Origin: a virus
Length of the DNA stretch: 32,669 bases
Direction: 5' to 3' (one strand)
Virus record (IMG/VR): IMGVR_UViG_3300043464_002720
Location: 1-32,669 of that record
Translations under genes and position numbers: made by a program
Part shown: positions 4,996 to 31,556 of the stretch, piece after piece
Position numbering within the stretch: the first letter of the stretch is position 1
How the letters are laid out: each line of letters begins with the position of its first letter
Notes under the pieces: generated by a model
Databases searched by the model: none
Seen by the model: the letters and a program-made list of their open reading frames with translations, nothing else
What the model was told of the DNA's origin: nothing

Positions 4996-7017
4996 ATGAC
5001 AGTCTCCATCGACCGCCCCACGTCTTCTGTTTCCGCCATGCCCGTTGCTGGTGGTTTCCGAGAGTTTGCCATTGCCGTCAACCAGCGGCTCCAGCAACTT
5101 GAGGGCAGCTTTGCCGAGTTCTATAAAGTTGATTGCCCCGAAATCTTTGATTACTATCTGAACGCTTTCCCCGAGGGCACGAACCCCATTTTCCGCGAGC
5201 GTACTGAACACGACTGCCAGTGCTGCAAGCAGTTCATTCGCAATCTAGGGGCGATCATCGCAATCAAGGACGGTCAGATCTACACGGTCTGGCAGGGGCT
5301 GACTGGTATCTCCGACACCTACGCCACTGTTGCAGGGGAGATGGATCGCATTGTGCGAAGCAGCCCCATTCTTTCTGTTTTCCGTACCGGAGAAATAAAC
5401 TTTGGGCACGAGAAAAACTTTGATTCTTATGATGCGATTATTTGGTATCACTTCTACGGCAATACTCCCAGTCGCTGTATCTCTCGTTCGCCGGGCGAAG
5501 ATATTGGCAAGGTCAATTCTGTTCACGATGTATTCAAGCGGGGGCTTGAAATCATCAAGTCTTCTGATCTTGATGAAATCATCACTCTAATTGATGACAA
5601 CCAAATCTATCGGGGCGAAGAGCATCGCAAGTCTGTTGCTGAGTTTCGCTCTCTGAAGCGAGGCTACGAAAGGGCGGAAAACAAAGAGCTTTACGTTTGG
5701 GAGCATGTTGGCAATCCCGCTGCTCGTTTCAAGAACACGGTGATCGGCACACTTGCTGTTGATCTTTCTGAGGGGGCGGAACAAGAGAAAGCCATCAAGA
5801 GCTTTGAAAGTAAAGTTGCCCCGGCAAATTACAAGCGCCCCAAAGCTTTGATCACGCCCCGCATGATCGAAGATGCTGTTGCAACACTCAAGCGCCTTGA
5901 CCTGGAGGATTCAATCAGCCGTCGCTTCGCTTCGATTGAAGACATCAGTGTCAATGACATTATCTTCATCGACAACGATGTGCGGGGCAAGGCAAAGGGC
6001 GGCCTGACCGATCTCTTGATGGAAGAGGTGCGCCCCACCGCTTCTGCACGCAAGGGTGAGGAGATTGGGATTGAGCAGTTCATCGCAATGCGTAGCAAGC
6101 GCATCGAGCTAGTTCTTGAAAACCGTCACCTAAATAACTTTGTAAGTATTACCGCCCCAGCCATTCCTGACTCGCCCTCACTGTTTAAGTGGGACAACGC
6201 TTTTGGTTGGTCTTATGACGGTGATGTTGCTGACTCGATTAAAGAGCGTGTGAAAACTGCTGGTGGCAACATCAATGCACTGCTGCGCTGTTCTCTCGCT
6301 TGGTTCAATTACGACGATCTTGACATTCATTGCATTGATCCTCGCGGAACTCATATTTACTACGGCGCCACAAGAGGTATTCTTGATGTTGACATGAACG
6401 CTGGCTTTAGTCGTTCACGGGAACCTGTCGAGAATTTGAGCTGGAATCAGATTACCGATGGCGAATACAAGATTTACGTCAATAACTTCTGTCGCCGTGA
6501 AACCGCCGATCCAGGTTTTCAGCTTCAGGTTGAATTTGCCGGCAGCATCCATGAATTTTCTTGCGACGCCTCGCCCATGCCTGGTGAGGGGCATCCTGGG
6601 GTTCACTGTCTGACACTTATTGTTGAGGGCGGGGAGCTTGCAGAAATCAAGACTCATGGTAAACTTAGTGGAAGTGCAGCCATTGCACGGGAGAAGTGGG
6701 GCGTAAAAACCAACATGCCAACGAAGGTCAATGTCCTGATGCTCTCCCCCAATCACTGGGAGAATTCAAGCAAGACGGGCAACCGGCACTACTTCTTCAT
6801 TCTCGACAAGTGCCTCAATCCAGAACCTGCAAGGGGGATTTTCAATGAATTTCTGATGAGTTCACTTGAGCAGCATCGCAGAGTGTTCGAGGTGCTTGGA
6901 AACAAAACCAAGTGCCAGCCGAGCAACAATCAACTCTCTGGTGTTGGCTTCTCTTCCACTCGCTCTGACTCCGTGAACGTGATTGCGGATGGGCGACCGT
7001 TTACAATCAAGTTCTGA
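4996..7017 (+). CDS. 673-residue phage protein with a DUF2135 (YfaP-like) domain
   Basis: The largest gene in the window. Residues about 430-530 contain the YfaP/DUF2135 signature: LAWFNYDDLDIHC, then GTHIYYG, LDVDMNAG, PVENLSW, and GEYKIYVNNF, a beta-sandwich module of unknown biochemical role. The N-terminal part has a Cys group (EHDCQCCKQFIRN, about residue 74) inside a motif (FPEGTNPIFRERTEHD) I associate with this phage family. The C-terminal third (KVNVLMLSPNHW, RHYFFIL) is also conserved in such proteins. It is followed by two small genes (7055, 7527) with similar leaders, probably a unit. The leader CAACCAATCAAATGAC resembles that at 20058. Confidence 0.8.
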   Translation: MTVSIDRPTSSVSAMPVAGGFREFAIAVNQRLQQLEGSFAEFYKVDCPEIFDYYLNAFPEGTNPIFRERTEHDCQCCKQFIRNLGAIIAIKDGQIYTVWQGLTGISDTYATVAGEMDRIVRSSPILSVFRTGEINFGHEKNFDSYDAIIWYHFYGNTPSRCISRSPGEDIGKVNSVHDVFKRGLEIIKSSDLDEIITLIDDNQIYRGEEHRKSVAEFRSLKRGYERAENKELYVWEHVGNPAARFKNTVIGTLAVDLSEGAEQEKAIKSFESKVAPANYKRPKALITPRMIEDAVATLKRLDLEDSISRRFASIEDISVNDIIFIDNDVRGKAKGGLTDLLMEEVRPTASARKGEEIGIEQFIAMRSKRIELVLENRHLNNFVSITAPAIPDSPSLFKWDNAFGWSYDGDVADSIKERVKTAGGNINALLRCSLAWFNYDDLDIHCIDPRGTHIYYGATRGILDVDMNAGFSRSREPVENLSWNQITDGEYKIYVNNFCRRETADPGFQLQVEFAGSIHEFSCDASPMPGEGHPGVHCLTLIVEGGELAEIKTHGKLSGSAAIAREKWGVKTNMPTKVNVLMLSPNHWENSSKTGNRHYFFILDKCLNPEPARGIFNEFLMSSLEQHRRVFEVLGNKTKCQPSNNQLSGVGFSSTRSDSVNVIADGRPFTIKF

Positions 7018-14850: not shown

Positions 14851-14949
14851 CTACTTCTTCTTCCCACCATTCTTGTAATCTTTGCCTTTGCCCTTACTTT
14901 TCCCGCCCTTGCCGTTCTTGCTGGTCTTGTAGCCTTTGCCGTTCATCAT
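14851..14949 (-). CDS. Tiny Lys/Gly-rich basic protein
   Basis: A 32-residue minus-strand frame made almost only of Lys, Gly, Asn, Tyr and Ser (for example SKNGKGGKSKGKGKDYKNGG), starting with a double Met and ending one base after the convergent plus-strand gene. A repetitive basic peptide of this kind would bind nucleic acid. Its leader (GGTTGCACAAA) and end (GGGAAGAAGAAGTAG) resemble those of the basic HNH-like gene at 21645-21908, so it may be a deleted relative of that gene. Translation is not proven. Confidence 0.4.
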   Translation of the reverse strand: MMNGKGYKTSKNGKGGKSKGKGKDYKNGGKKK

Positions 14950-15013: not shown

Positions 15014-15352
15014 ATGAAAAAATTTCGCGTCAAGCTACGCTCTATCGTCTACGAGTGGGTCAACGGGGAAGTGGAGCCAGAGCACGCTCTTCACGAGATT
15101 GTAAAGCTTGTCGATGGGCGATCTGTTAAGCAGTTAAATCTTTGCACCAGGACTTTGCACGCCCTGCTCAGAGCGGGCTATGAAACAATTGAAGACCTGA
15201 CTGAAGCCAGTGAAAAAGAGCTTAGGACTATTCCGCTTATAGGATTTGGCTCTCTTGTTGAAATCGCAGCCGCACTTGATGAGTTCGAGAGGGGCGGTAC
15301 AGAGCTTAATTGTATAGCTGTTAGAACAGATCTGCTTGAGGGGGATGACTGA
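15014..15352 (+). CDS. RNA polymerase alpha-CTD-like protein
   Basis: A 112-residue protein whose residues about 37-92 match the alpha subunit C-terminal domain of bacterial RNA polymerase (two helix-hairpin-helix units): VKQLNLCTRTLHALLRAG, then TIEDLTEASEKELRTIP and IGFGSLVEIAAAL. Aligned by eye with E. coli RpoA, R46 falls at R265 (the main UP-element contact), G77 at G296 and S80 at S299, while the N294 and K298 positions differ. The amino-terminal assembly domain of alpha is absent; residues 1-36 are a short basic/acidic leader. It could bind promoter DNA or replace alpha-CTD contacts. First of a run of overlapping genes leading into replication functions. Confidence 0.75.
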   Translation: MKKFRVKLRSIVYEWVNGEVEPEHALHEIVKLVDGRSVKQLNLCTRTLHALLRAGYETIEDLTEASEKELRTIPLIGFGSLVEIAAALDEFERGGTELNCIAVRTDLLEGDD

Positions 15353-15677
15353 TTTGCTTAAACAGCTTGTTGAACTGCATCAATCTGTCAAGTTAAAAAA
15401 AGAAAACCACAAGAAGAAAATTGCTGACATTGATGACGAGCGTGCAAATCTTTTCTACAAGGCAGCTCAGCTAGAAGAAGATACGCCAGCAATGGATGAA
15501 GTTTACCGACAATTAGATTTACTTGACAGCAAAGAGTTTTCATGCTACTGTCAACTTAGAAATTTTCTTTCACTTGCTGATGAACAGATCGACAAAACAA
15601 TCAAGTCAGTTGTTCAGCGAAGATTTGAATCCATCGGACCCCTTCTTCCATATATTGGTAGCGATGCGTTTGAGTGA
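15345..15677 (+). CDS. Helical hypothetical protein
   Basis: A 110-residue, highly helical protein with a likely coiled coil in the first 50 residues (KKENHKKKIADIDDERANLF). The ATG at 15345 overlaps the alpha-CTD-like gene by 8 nt. No enzyme motif. Co-translation with the neighbouring DNA-binding proteins suggests a helper or structural role, which is inference. Confidence 0.6.
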   Translation: MTDLLKQLVELHQSVKLKKENHKKKIADIDDERANLFYKAAQLEEDTPAMDEVYRQLDLLDSKEFSCYCQLRNFLSLADEQIDKTIKSVVQRRFESIGPLLPYIGSDAFE

Positions 15678-15891
15678 GCTAAATCCGCTCATGACAGTTG
15701 ACCAAGCTAGGAGGGCAGATGAAATATCAGACAAGCTTTGTAGGTTTGCCGTCAGAAAAATCAAAGCCTCTGACCAGGGCAGTAGAGTAAACCATATTCA
15801 CAAACAGCAACTTGAGCTTGCAGTGCTTGGGCGTGATCTGATAGTTGAACTTGAGAGCGAAATCCAAGAGCGTGGGGGCGAAAATGAGTAA
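15664..15891 (+). CDS. Small helical hypothetical protein
   Basis: A 75-residue helical protein (RADEISDKLCRFAVRKIKAS ... LAVLGRDLIVELESEIQERG) starting at an ATG inside the end of the previous gene and overlapping the following start. The frame is open from 15523, but that part only shadows the upstream gene. No recognisable family. Confidence 0.6.
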   Translation: MRLSELNPLMTVDQARRADEISDKLCRFAVRKIKASDQGSRVNHIHKQQLELAVLGRDLIVELESEIQERGGENE

Positions 15892-16630
15892 CAAAACAGT
15901 GCCCGTTGTATCTGATAGATTTCTCGTCGCCCCAGCAAATCTTCTTCAGCAAAACAGAAATTATATCTGGGTGTTCTTGATATTGATGAACAAAGCGAAC
16001 AGTCAGAGGTCTACTGTGATTTCCGGCGATGAACTCATTGAGCTGTCGGGCCTTTCTCCGACTGAGCTAAGAGACGCTTTGTACTGGTTAATGCTAAACG
16101 GTTATGTCAGAAAGACATATTCCGAGGAAAAAGCAAAAAGTGTCTATCTTCTAAGCGTGGAGGGGGCGCTGCCTCATGAGGTTTCCAATAGTCTTCGCCC
16201 CTCATCCAGTCAACTGCCTCGCCCCACACGTTCAACAGAGCCCATCAAGGCAAAAAACAAAAAGTTTGTTGCAACTCTCTCGGGGAGCGAGGGTGTCACA
16301 ATCCCTCCACAGTTATCAACGGTTGCTTCAGGTATTTGCGACTTTTTCAACAATCACAAGGGGGGCGCAAAAACAAAAAGATCTTTTTACAGCCTGCTTG
16401 ATTCTCTGGTTCGGATACTTGAAGACCCAGGGGGCGGCATCGAAGCAGTAAGGAAGCAGCTCGACTCTGCCATTGAGAAATCGAAGTCGGGCGAGAAAAA
16501 GTGGGACTCGATTACTTATCAGAATTGGGACAAATTTGGCAGAGAGAAGAAGCCTCACTGGGAGCAAAATACTAGGCCTTCCACTCAGCAAATAGTTAGC
16601 ACTTTTGAAGAGGACATCGCAGGTTTCTGA
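15884..16630 (+). CDS. Winged-helix protein, putative replication initiator or helicase loader
   Basis: A 248-residue protein. Residues about 20-92 look like a winged helix-turn-helix: ISGDELIELSGLSPTELRDA as the helix-turn-helix, then YWLMLNGYVRKTY and a YLLS wing strand. A disordered Ser/Pro/Lys linker follows (about 105-150), then a helical C-terminal domain ending in acidic residues. It lies directly before a DnaB-type helicase, the usual place of phage replication initiators (O/DnaD-like) that bring the helicase to origin DNA. Exact family not assigned. Confidence 0.6.
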   Translation: MSNKTVPVVSDRFLVAPANLLQQNRNYIWVFLILMNKANSQRSTVISGDELIELSGLSPTELRDALYWLMLNGYVRKTYSEEKAKSVYLLSVEGALPHEVSNSLRPSSSQLPRPTRSTEPIKAKNKKFVATLSGSEGVTIPPQLSTVASGICDFFNNHKGGAKTKRSFYSLLDSLVRILEDPGGGIEAVRKQLDSAIEKSKSGEKKWDSITYQNWDKFGREKKPHWEQNTRPSTQQIVSTFEEDIAGF

Positions 16631-16631
16631 C

Positions 16632-18053
16632 ATGAGCATCATCAATCTCGAAGAATTTGAATCACAGCAGGACTCCTGCGAAATTGAAAAGCACTTTCTC
16701 GCTGCTGCTTACAATCATTTCTGTTTTGCTTTTGGAGAGCAGGAATGGGCGGATAAATTCATGGAAATGTTGAAAGGGCGAGAGCTGTTTTCGGACCCAT
16801 TCAACAGATACATGTTTGACTGCCTTGAAGAAGAGTACGGCACCTTTCATCAATCTCCGACAAACGACATTACTCTTGCCGCTCGTCTGAGAGATGCTTC
16901 GGGCTGCGAAATAAAAGCTGCTGAAGATTACATTGAGCAAGTCGCCTCTTATCCCATAGAGAAAGACTTGGACGTGTGGGCGGAAAAAATAATGCCCATC
17001 TGGTACTTTCATTATTCTCGCTCAAGAGTCAAGGACTATATTCAGAACTCAGCTGATATTGTCAGCAAGAGCTGCAACATCAAAGAATCAAAGGTTGCAA
17101 CCTCTTATCTACTGCAAGCGGTTGACTTGATTGAGGGGGCGGAAGTTTACAAGAAGGAGGTTCACCCTTTGATTGCAGCCAAAGAGATGTTCCTGGGGCC
17201 AAAAATCAACAATCGAGTGATCAGAACTCGCTTCACTGGGCTCAATGCCTCACTCGGGGGCGGGCTGAATCACCCCGACATGGGCAAAGGGGGGCGACTG
17301 ATCGTTGTTGCAGGGCGCCCTGGCAGTGGTAAATCGACCTGGGCGATGAATCTTGCACTTGACGTTGCGATCAAGAATTACAAGGTTTTGTATTACACCT
17401 TGGAAATGCCAGATAGTGAGGTGTGCCAGAGAATGCTGTCTTGCATGGACTACCTCAGGTGCTTAGAGGAAGGGGGGAGCCCCTTGACTTATGGCCATGT
17501 CATCAGGCAGGCCAAGGACGAGAAACAAGAACAGCGAATTCTTGATACGGAAGTTGAACCGATAGCTCAAAACCTTATATTCACTAACACTTTTGAAACG
17601 ACCGCCTCTCAGGTTGTTAGTAAAATCAAGTCTGAAAAAAGAAAGCATCCAGACCTGGCCTTGGTGGTGATCGACTATCTGACACTGATGGACATGGACT
17701 CTGACACCACAAAGGCTGAGAACAGAGCTTTGGCAGTGGGGGCGGCAACAAGAAAGTTCAAGATAGCTGCAACACGTACCGGTGTTGACATTTTGCTTGT
17801 CTGTCAGCTAAATAGAGGGGTTGAAAGTCGTGCAGATAAGCGCCCCATGCTCTCGGACCTCAGAGAGTCGGGCAAGATCGAAGAAGACGCCGACATGGTT
17901 GTTTTCAATTACTGGCCGTATTACTACGACAAAACGCAGGATCAGATGATTTATGAGTACGCTATTGCCAAAAACAGAAAGGGGGCGACGGGAACATGCA
18001 ATATCAATTTTGCAGCTGAGTGCTATGCAATGTTTGAAGCCCCGAAGTGGTAA
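16632..18053 (+). CDS. dnaB: DnaB-type replicative helicase
   Basis: A 473-residue protein. The C-terminal RecA-like domain has Walker A GRPGSGKST (residues 228-236), an LEMPDSEVCQRM segment typical of DnaB H1a, Walker B LALVVIDYLTLMD with D348, and the later RADKRPMLSDLRESGKIEEDADMV region containing the conserved Q-L-N-R-G and arginine-rich stretch of DnaB proteins. The first 180 residues form the helical N-terminal region. It unwinds DNA at the phage fork using ATP. The ATG at 16632 is chosen because it follows the upstream stop; an earlier in-frame start at 16605 overlaps it. Together with the winged-helix and zinc proteins it forms the replication block. Confidence 0.9.
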   Translation: MSIINLEEFESQQDSCEIEKHFLAAAYNHFCFAFGEQEWADKFMEMLKGRELFSDPFNRYMFDCLEEEYGTFHQSPTNDITLAARLRDASGCEIKAAEDYIEQVASYPIEKDLDVWAEKIMPIWYFHYSRSRVKDYIQNSADIVSKSCNIKESKVATSYLLQAVDLIEGAEVYKKEVHPLIAAKEMFLGPKINNRVIRTRFTGLNASLGGGLNHPDMGKGGRLIVVAGRPGSGKSTWAMNLALDVAIKNYKVLYYTLEMPDSEVCQRMLSCMDYLRCLEEGGSPLTYGHVIRQAKDEKQEQRILDTEVEPIAQNLIFTNTFETTASQVVSKIKSEKRKHPDLALVVIDYLTLMDMDSDTTKAENRALAVGAATRKFKIAATRTGVDILLVCQLNRGVESRADKRPMLSDLRESGKIEEDADMVVFNYWPYYYDKTQDQMIYEYAIAKNRKGATGTCNINFAAECYAMFEAPKW

Positions 18054-30647: not shown

Positions 30648-31556
30648 GTGAAGCAGAACGATCCGAGTCTCAAGGCCTACCTCAATGAGGTGGGCAAGTA
30701 CCCTCTCCTGGGGGCGGATGAGGAGCTTGCGTTGGGGCGACTGGTTCAAAGGCTTGTCGAGCTGGAGGAAAGGCTGGGCTCGGGGCAGGTTCTTGGCATA
30801 GAGGAGGAGATCGAAGTTTTCAATGGGCAAAAAGCAAAGAAAAAGTTTATCAATTCCAACCTGAGATTAGTTGTTGACATTGCCAAGAAGTATCATCATC
30901 AATGCCAGAGTCTTGACCTTCTGGATTTGATACAAGAGGGCAACTTTGCACTGATAAGAGCGGTAGAGAAATTCGATTACACCAGAGGATATAGATTTTC
31001 AACTTACTGCTATTGGTGGATACGTCAAGCAATGCAACGGGCTATTGGCTCACTTGATTCGCCCATCAGGCTGCCCACGAGCTTTCGAGATATTGTTTTC
31101 AGAGTCAACAAAGCAGTTGAAAGACTGTCAAAAGAGCTAAACCGTCGCCCCACTGCAAAAGAGCTGGCAGAAGAGCTTGGGGTATCGGCAGAAATTCTCG
31201 ATCTGGCGAATCAAAGGTCTCAGGGAGTGCTGAGCTTGGATGTTCAGGTCGAGTGCGATACGTCAAGAGTCTCAATCATTGACAACATAGAAGATGCTGT
31301 CAACCTGAACACGGTGGAAAGCCTTGAAGACGACTTAATGCTTCAAGAGCTATTCTTTGCCCTCGAAAACTTTCTTGATGATACTACGAGGCTCATCCTT
31401 TCTGAAAGATCTCGCCCCACCCCAACGCCATGGAAGGAACTCGAAGCCCTGACGGGATTTAGCAGACCGAAGCTGAAGCAAATAGAGAGAAACGCAATAA
31501 ATAAATGCAGAGTAATGATTGAGACTCACAGGGCCATGGGCCTTGATTTTTGTTAA
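30648..31556 (+). CDS. Sigma70-family sigma factor
   Basis: A 302-residue protein starting at GTG 30648. It begins at region 1.2 (DPSLKAYLNEVGKYPLL), lacks region 1.1, and has a clear region 2 (NSNLRLVVDIAKKYHH, LDLIQEGNFALIRAVEKFDY, TRGYRFSTYCYWWIRQAMQR) and region 3 (RPTAKELAEELGVSAE). Region 4 is recognisable but diverged: LSERSRPTPTPWKELEALTG, then RPKLKQIERNAINKCR. It should direct RNA polymerase to promoters, probably with relaxed or altered -35 reading. Its stop shares TTAA with the stop of the convergent metallophosphoesterase. Confidence 0.92.
   Translation: MKQNDPSLKAYLNEVGKYPLLGADEELALGRLVQRLVELEERLGSGQVLGIEEEIEVFNGQKAKKKFINSNLRLVVDIAKKYHHQCQSLDLLDLIQEGNFALIRAVEKFDYTRGYRFSTYCYWWIRQAMQRAIGSLDSPIRLPTSFRDIVFRVNKAVERLSKELNRRPTAKELAEELGVSAEILDLANQRSQGVLSLDVQVECDTSRVSIIDNIEDAVNLNTVESLEDDLMLQELFFALENFLDDTTRLILSERSRPTPTPWKELEALTGFSRPKLKQIERNAINKCRVMIETHRAMGLDFC

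Follow-up and report, generated by a model that had tools for sequence, protein, structure and literature searches.

The gene at 15014-15352 of the window (the whole of an IMG/VR virus record of 32,669 bases) encodes a phage protein with a domain of the RNA polymerase alpha-CTD fold and family and without the assembly domain of the alpha subunit. The main platform on which bacterial activators dock is the alpha-CTD, which also reads UP-elements and is modified by phage T4; by making a free alpha-CTD, a phage would have a further means of retuning host transcription. As the likeliest role, we tentatively propose that the protein uses its alpha-CTD to bind DNA and contributes to reprogramming transcription at phage promoters. 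The gene and its parts were delimited as follows.

15014..15352, plus strand: gene for the alpha-CTD-like protein (112 aa; ATG at 15014, TGA at 15350-15352), with a PF03118 match of 43 bits, five relatives and purifying selection.
15119..15283, plus strand: alpha-CTD domain, residues 36-90, identified by Pfam, profile-profile alignment, AlphaFold2/Foldseek and alignment of contact residues.
15014..15118, plus strand: N-terminal extension, residues 1-35, modelled by AlphaFold2 as a two-helix hairpin (2-16 and 22-34), with an intragenic recombination site between relatives.
15287..15349, plus strand: tail, residues 92-112, with a pLDDT of about 50 and, being conserved, a single amino-acid change among relatives.

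The open reading frame and the alpha-CTD in its C-terminal part, both noted in a preliminary description of this DNA, were recovered with Pfam, in which PF03118 (RNA_pol_A_CTD) matched residues 36-90 with 43 bits (E=3.8e-11, cut-off 23.8) and the five relatives with 43.5-46.2 bits. Generic helix-hairpin-helix families stayed below their cut-offs (HHH_5, 23 bits against 27; HHH_2, 14 bits). A phmmer search of PDB sequences returned RNA polymerase alpha chains only at E <= 0.05, the best being the Thermus alpha-CTD (1doq, E=1.7e-5), and profile-profile alignment with full-length alpha gave a probability of 95% (E=2.7e-8) over residues 36-91 only. The NCBIfam matches were nearly all to alpha-subunit models, each far under the whole-protein cut-off, as expected because the assembly domain is missing; the best rpoA score was 43.1 bits where 277 are needed, so that the protein is not a whole RpoA. 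The short 'hypothetical protein' family NF005841/PRK07758, which also resembles the alpha-CTD, aligned over residues 45-90, but at 18.2 bits against a cut-off of 115 the protein is not a member. An unrelated helix-hairpin-helix or ligase/UvrC domain, the outcome named beforehand as contradicting an alpha-CTD, did not come out on top in any search, as Pfam, PDB, NCBIfam and Foldseek all ranked the alpha-CTD first.

The assembly domain (PF01193), which the preliminary description had rightly taken to be absent, gave no match in the record or in four related contigs, with 13 of 14 control genomes positive. Residues 1-35, which are predicted to be helical, are too short for the N-terminal assembly/dimerisation domain of RpoA. 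A beta-subunit gene was not found in the record, and two scans of genome contigs, able to reveal close relatives only, returned no cellular relatives. The protein thus combines the features of an informal group of phage stand-alone alpha-CTD proteins, namely a phage gene, a C-terminal alpha-CTD, no RpoA NTD and a retained equivalent of R265.

The structure was predicted using AlphaFold2 without templates from an alignment of 20 phage alpha-CTD sequences, yielding a model with a pLDDT of 82 and helices at residues 2-16, 22-34, 45-53, 59-64, 67-71 and 78-92; with four near-identical sequences only, the pLDDT was 53 and the model was unusable. Since the alignment includes alpha-CTDs, the predicted fold is only partly independent as a test. 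Foldseek matches in the PDB were overwhelmingly RNA polymerase alpha (TMt up to 0.91), with modest E-values (best 3.9e-3) because the domain has only about 55 residues. The model aligned with the S. coelicolor alpha-CTD at a TMt of 0.91 (rmsd 0.7 Å), with that of Synechococcus at 0.85 (0.8 Å) and with the Spx-bound B. subtilis domain at 0.79 (1.1 Å), giving the overlay on alpha-CTDs that had been suggested as a check; isolated solved alpha-CTDs superposed at 0.7-2.0 Å overall. Cellular alpha-CTDs (PF03118; Thermus 1doq, E. coli 1lb2, Synechococcus 9dvt) and the phage domain are therefore of the same family, above cut-off, and the same fold, whereas the phage protein carries a short helical hairpin where alpha has its NTD.

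An origin of this N-terminal part from a truncated RpoA was considered and left as unproven. A likeness between residues 10-33 (VYEWVNGEVEPEHALHEIVKLV) and the end of the alpha NTD (IEIWTNGTISPxEAxxxAxKIL) was picked up unprompted by phmmer, and a small HMM scored these residues at 7.2 bits, a value reached by 4 of 20,000 shuffles and compared with a best background of 6.5 among 3,801 real windows. However, profile-profile alignment with alpha did not extend into residues 10-33, and AlphaFold2 predicted a helix at residues 2-16, where alpha has a strand.

Four of the eight positions in the E. coli DNA-contact set (R265, N268, C269, N294, G296, K298, S299 and E302) are kept in the phage protein, as R46, G77 (G296), S80 (S299) and E83 (E302); the first three of these assignments had been made correctly in the preliminary description. 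The other four are replaced (N268 by H49, C269 by A50, N294 by L75 and K298 by G79). Only the changes at N294 and K298 had been reported before; both stand, but those at N268 and C269 had been missed, as had the absence of the acidic pair D259/E261, replaced here by Q40/N42. Acidic 261-type residues of the E. coli alpha-CTD contact sigma. The equivalent of R265 was invariant across the 20 aligned phage sequences, with those of G296 and E302 nearly so, and R46 itself was found in each of the five close relatives; the arginine was present in the distant phage copies as well, without exception among those examined, including those of Mithril, Zenteno07, Goe8 and Morrill, so that the loss of R46 in homologues that had been named as counter-evidence was not seen. 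In E. coli, R265 is critical for DNA binding by the alpha-CTD, with other residues including N268 (PMC11434276). The cellular alpha-CTD of Thermus, which is likewise substituted at N294, has a histidine in place of N268 too, as do two unrelated phage copies (L052 and L057); the change to histidine therefore need not abolish binding and is not alone a sign of lost function. Over the domain, identity was 22/53 to Thermus (among the closest), 15-17 of 52-53 to cyanobacterial alpha-CTDs and 20-22 of 48-54 to other phage copies (37-44% for the copies aligned).

The gene is real and under purifying selection. It was found in five related viral contigs at 88-100% amino-acid identity, the most divergent pair having a dN of 0.061, a dS of 0.526 and a dN/dS of about 0.12. 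The window and contig G003 are identical past codon 35 and strongly different over the first 35 codons (dS 0.75), and a sixth relative, G006, has only the last 31 codons left, with downstream operon genes 86-99% identical. Two recombination or deletion borders thus fall inside the gene, one between the window and G003 before codon 36 (15014-15118) and one in G006 before codon 82 (L007/G006, about 31222). These borders make it the edge gene where a variable region upstream meets the conserved replication block, and G006 shows at least one loss of the gene.

The alpha-CTD gene is the first of a replication operon containing an initiator-like gene, a DnaB helicase and more genes, with synteny in five related contigs. 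The operon genes that follow it are listed below.

15345..15677, plus strand: second operon gene, whose ATG overlaps the alpha-CTD gene around its stop codon (ATGACTGA); without a family match that passes its cut-off.
15664..15891, plus strand: third operon gene, no assigned function, conserved in 6/6 relatives.
15884..16630, plus strand: fourth operon gene, weakly matching phage replication-initiation proteins (phrog_270, E=0.0034).
16605..18053, plus strand: DnaB-like replicative helicase (PF03796, 1.5e-55; phrog_19, 1.4e-58).

Further along the conserved block come an ERF annealing protein, an exonuclease, a dNMP kinase, a RusA resolvase, a sub-threshold AbrB-like protein, an NrdR-type zinc ribbon, a dCTP deaminase and, about 15 kb from the alpha-CTD gene, a sigma factor.

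30648..31556, plus strand: cyanobacterial-type sigma-70 factor, a possible functional partner, with regions 1.2, 2 and 3 clear and region 4 divergent.

The best NCBIfam model for this sigma factor was TIGR02997 (Sig70-cyanoRpoD, the cyanobacterial RpoD/SigA family), at 3e-63 and under the whole-protein cut-off, and its top phage matches included Microcystis phage MaAM05 (top-listed) and Synechococcus phage S-CBS3. Region 4 scored 15.4 bits against a cut-off of 24.1, its 4.2 helix reading SRPKLKQIERNAINKCR. In G006, which is without the alpha-CTD gene, the sigma factor is only 74% identical, most neighbouring proteins being about 90% or more. As G006 keeps a related sigma factor without the alpha-CTD gene, the latter is not indispensable. 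Having a sigma factor of cyanobacterial type among its own genes, the phage probably infects a cyanobacterium. The gene order near the sigma and RusA genes resembles that of S-CBS3, and the freshwater cyanosiphovirus S-LBS1 is of comparable size and modules (PMC6157547). A related contig, G005, carries portal, terminase, major head and tail genes, so the record is that of a tailed phage.

The placing of an alpha-CTD in a phage by the preliminary description was correct, the record being a phage, but the finding is less novel than was implied there, as several phage proteins in BFVD are already titled 'RNA polymerase alpha subunit C-terminal domain-containing protein' and genes of this kind are present in isolated phages (Mithril gp57, Zenteno07 gp68, Goe8 gp5 and Morrill gp24). 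The named examples (Mithril gp57/A0A5Q2WLP1, uncultured Caudovirales phage entries, Rhodococcus phage Finch, and Bacillus phage Goe8 gp5, named 'RNA polymerase subunit alpha') share with the 112-residue protein a stand-alone gene and a C-terminal alpha-CTD and differ from it in their N-terminal parts. In INPHARED, the only true phage match was Zenteno07 gp68, and no cyanophage alpha-CTD protein was found. The other three matches (MT835508, MT837142 and MT837710, each 'Bacteriophage sp.') were rejected as bacterial rpoA contamination and left uncounted; that of MT835508 sits between ribosomal-protein genes, and full-length alpha was seen among these contaminant matches. The mycobacteriophage genes Zenteno07 gp68 (L009, 2662-3162) and Mithril gp57 (L076, 2995-3444) encode proteins annotated as 'hypothetical' in which the alpha-CTD is C-terminal.

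When broader alignments were used, scans of viral contigs identified many alpha-CTD proteins outside RpoA, some of them stand-alone (L045, 82 aa; L054; L057, 73 aa; L064), some behind other N-terminal parts (L042, L046, L048, L049, L051 and L073) and some fused to sigma-70 region 4, at the following positions.

L043, 2572-3195: sigma region 4/alpha-CTD fusion, Pfam-confirmed.
L044, 2281-3192: sigma region 4/alpha-CTD fusion.
L047, 2122-3195: sigma region 4/alpha-CTD fusion.
L050, 2335-3198: sigma region 4/alpha-CTD fusion, with an apparent Cro/C1-type HTH in front.
L055, 2329-3201: sigma region 4/alpha-CTD fusion, Pfam-confirmed, with an apparent Cro/C1-type HTH in front.
L056, 2602-3267: sigma region 4/alpha-CTD fusion.
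L058, 2602-3267: sigma region 4/alpha-CTD fusion.

Like the window's protein, these fusions have an alpha-CTD outside RpoA with the key arginine; they hold sigma region 4 and alpha-CTD in one polypeptide, whereas the window has separate sigma and alpha-CTD genes. Judged from their sequences, they would be one-chain factors uniting a -35 reader with a reader of upstream DNA, and they tie phage alpha-CTDs to transcription. Sigma region 4 was above cut-off in 12 of the 23 contigs tested, a proportion that, lacking a background rate, is only suggestive. Phage alpha-CTDs outside RpoA, often fused to sigma region 4, thus recur across unrelated phages, and the 112-residue protein joins an existing, apparently uncharacterised group: no functional study of a phage stand-alone alpha-CTD was found in the open-access literature searched, many subscription papers lying outside that scope. 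Its size makes it a tractable target and a lead on how phages redirect host transcription, though not an unprecedented one.

Under the promoter role proposed above, the gene product would be a two-part protein, made together with the replication genes, in which a helical hairpin accompanies an alpha-CTD gripping the DNA minor groove via R46. It would serve as a separate promoter-upstream DNA-binding part that aids host RNA polymerase, probably under the direction of the sigma factor that the phage encodes, on phage promoters; contact with sigma or polymerase may be made via the hairpin, and the effect would be activating, not inhibiting. Speaking for this role are the family and fold of the domain, the invariant arginine, the low dN/dS, the phage sigma gene within the same conserved block and the sigma region 4 fusions of other phages. 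The functions suggested in the preliminary description, namely binding of UP-elements, competition with the host domain or bridging to an activator, are hypothetical. Several findings speak against this promoter role, namely the four replaced contact residues, Q40/N42 in place of the 261-type acidic residues, the location of the gene beside replication genes and not beside sigma, its loss in G006 and a promoter scan in which no sigma-70-like pattern rose above chance near the gene.

We consider it unlikely that the protein is instead a decoy of the host alpha-CTD, occupying UP-elements or host activators unjoined to polymerase and thereby lowering host transcription during infection. A protein with R46 and without an assembly domain could attach to the DNA or activator surfaces that the host domain uses without bringing in polymerase, and stand-alone copies as short as those of L045 and L057 exist; yet the domain is no closer to cyanobacterial host alpha-CTDs than to Thermus or other phage copies, a poor fit for a mimic, several contact residues are unlike the host's, and the sigma region 4 fusions point to active use in other phages. 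A replication-linked DNA-binding protein, using the alpha-CTD fold at the origin of the phage or together with the operon's initiator and helicase, is doubtful as well. The syntenic first place in the operon ahead of these two genes and the ATGACTGA overlap would suit it, as would the Zenteno07 and Mithril copies, which lie a few genes from DNA polymerase I, but operon membership may reflect early expression only, no iteron-like repeats above chance were found near the operon, G006 retains the operon without the alpha-CTD gene, and the links of this domain family are otherwise to transcription.

Returning to the promoter role, the weak region 4 of the sigma factor would make a supplementary reader of upstream DNA attractive, on hypothetical grounds. 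A split promoter-recognition apparatus, in which a phage sigma factor with an eroded region 4 and weak -35 reading is joined by a free alpha-CTD that docks via its hairpin on sigma or host polymerase and contacts upstream DNA in trans, is speculative and rather improbable; if true, the alpha-CTD would have become a diffusible promoter factor, no longer a domain tethered to its subunit. A helix-hairpin-helix module for protein interaction that has lost DNA binding would agree with the changes at half of the E. coli contact positions but is very unlikely, given that R46, G77, S80 and E83 do not vary within the family and that the cellular Thermus domain is likewise substituted at N268 and N294.

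Elsewhere in the window, positions 1662-2561 encode an RNA-repair nucleotidyltransferase of the RlaP family (PF10127, 295 bits), downstream of which lies a 673-aa phrog_1735 protein (4996-7017) common to hundreds of phages. Divergent from the alpha-CTD gene, a tiny unannotated open reading frame was observed on the minus strand at 14851-14949 (MMNGKGYKTSKNGKGGKSKGKGKDYKNGGKKK), which is retained in the related contigs with in-frame gaps and third-position changes that suggest a real Lys/Gly-rich micro-protein.
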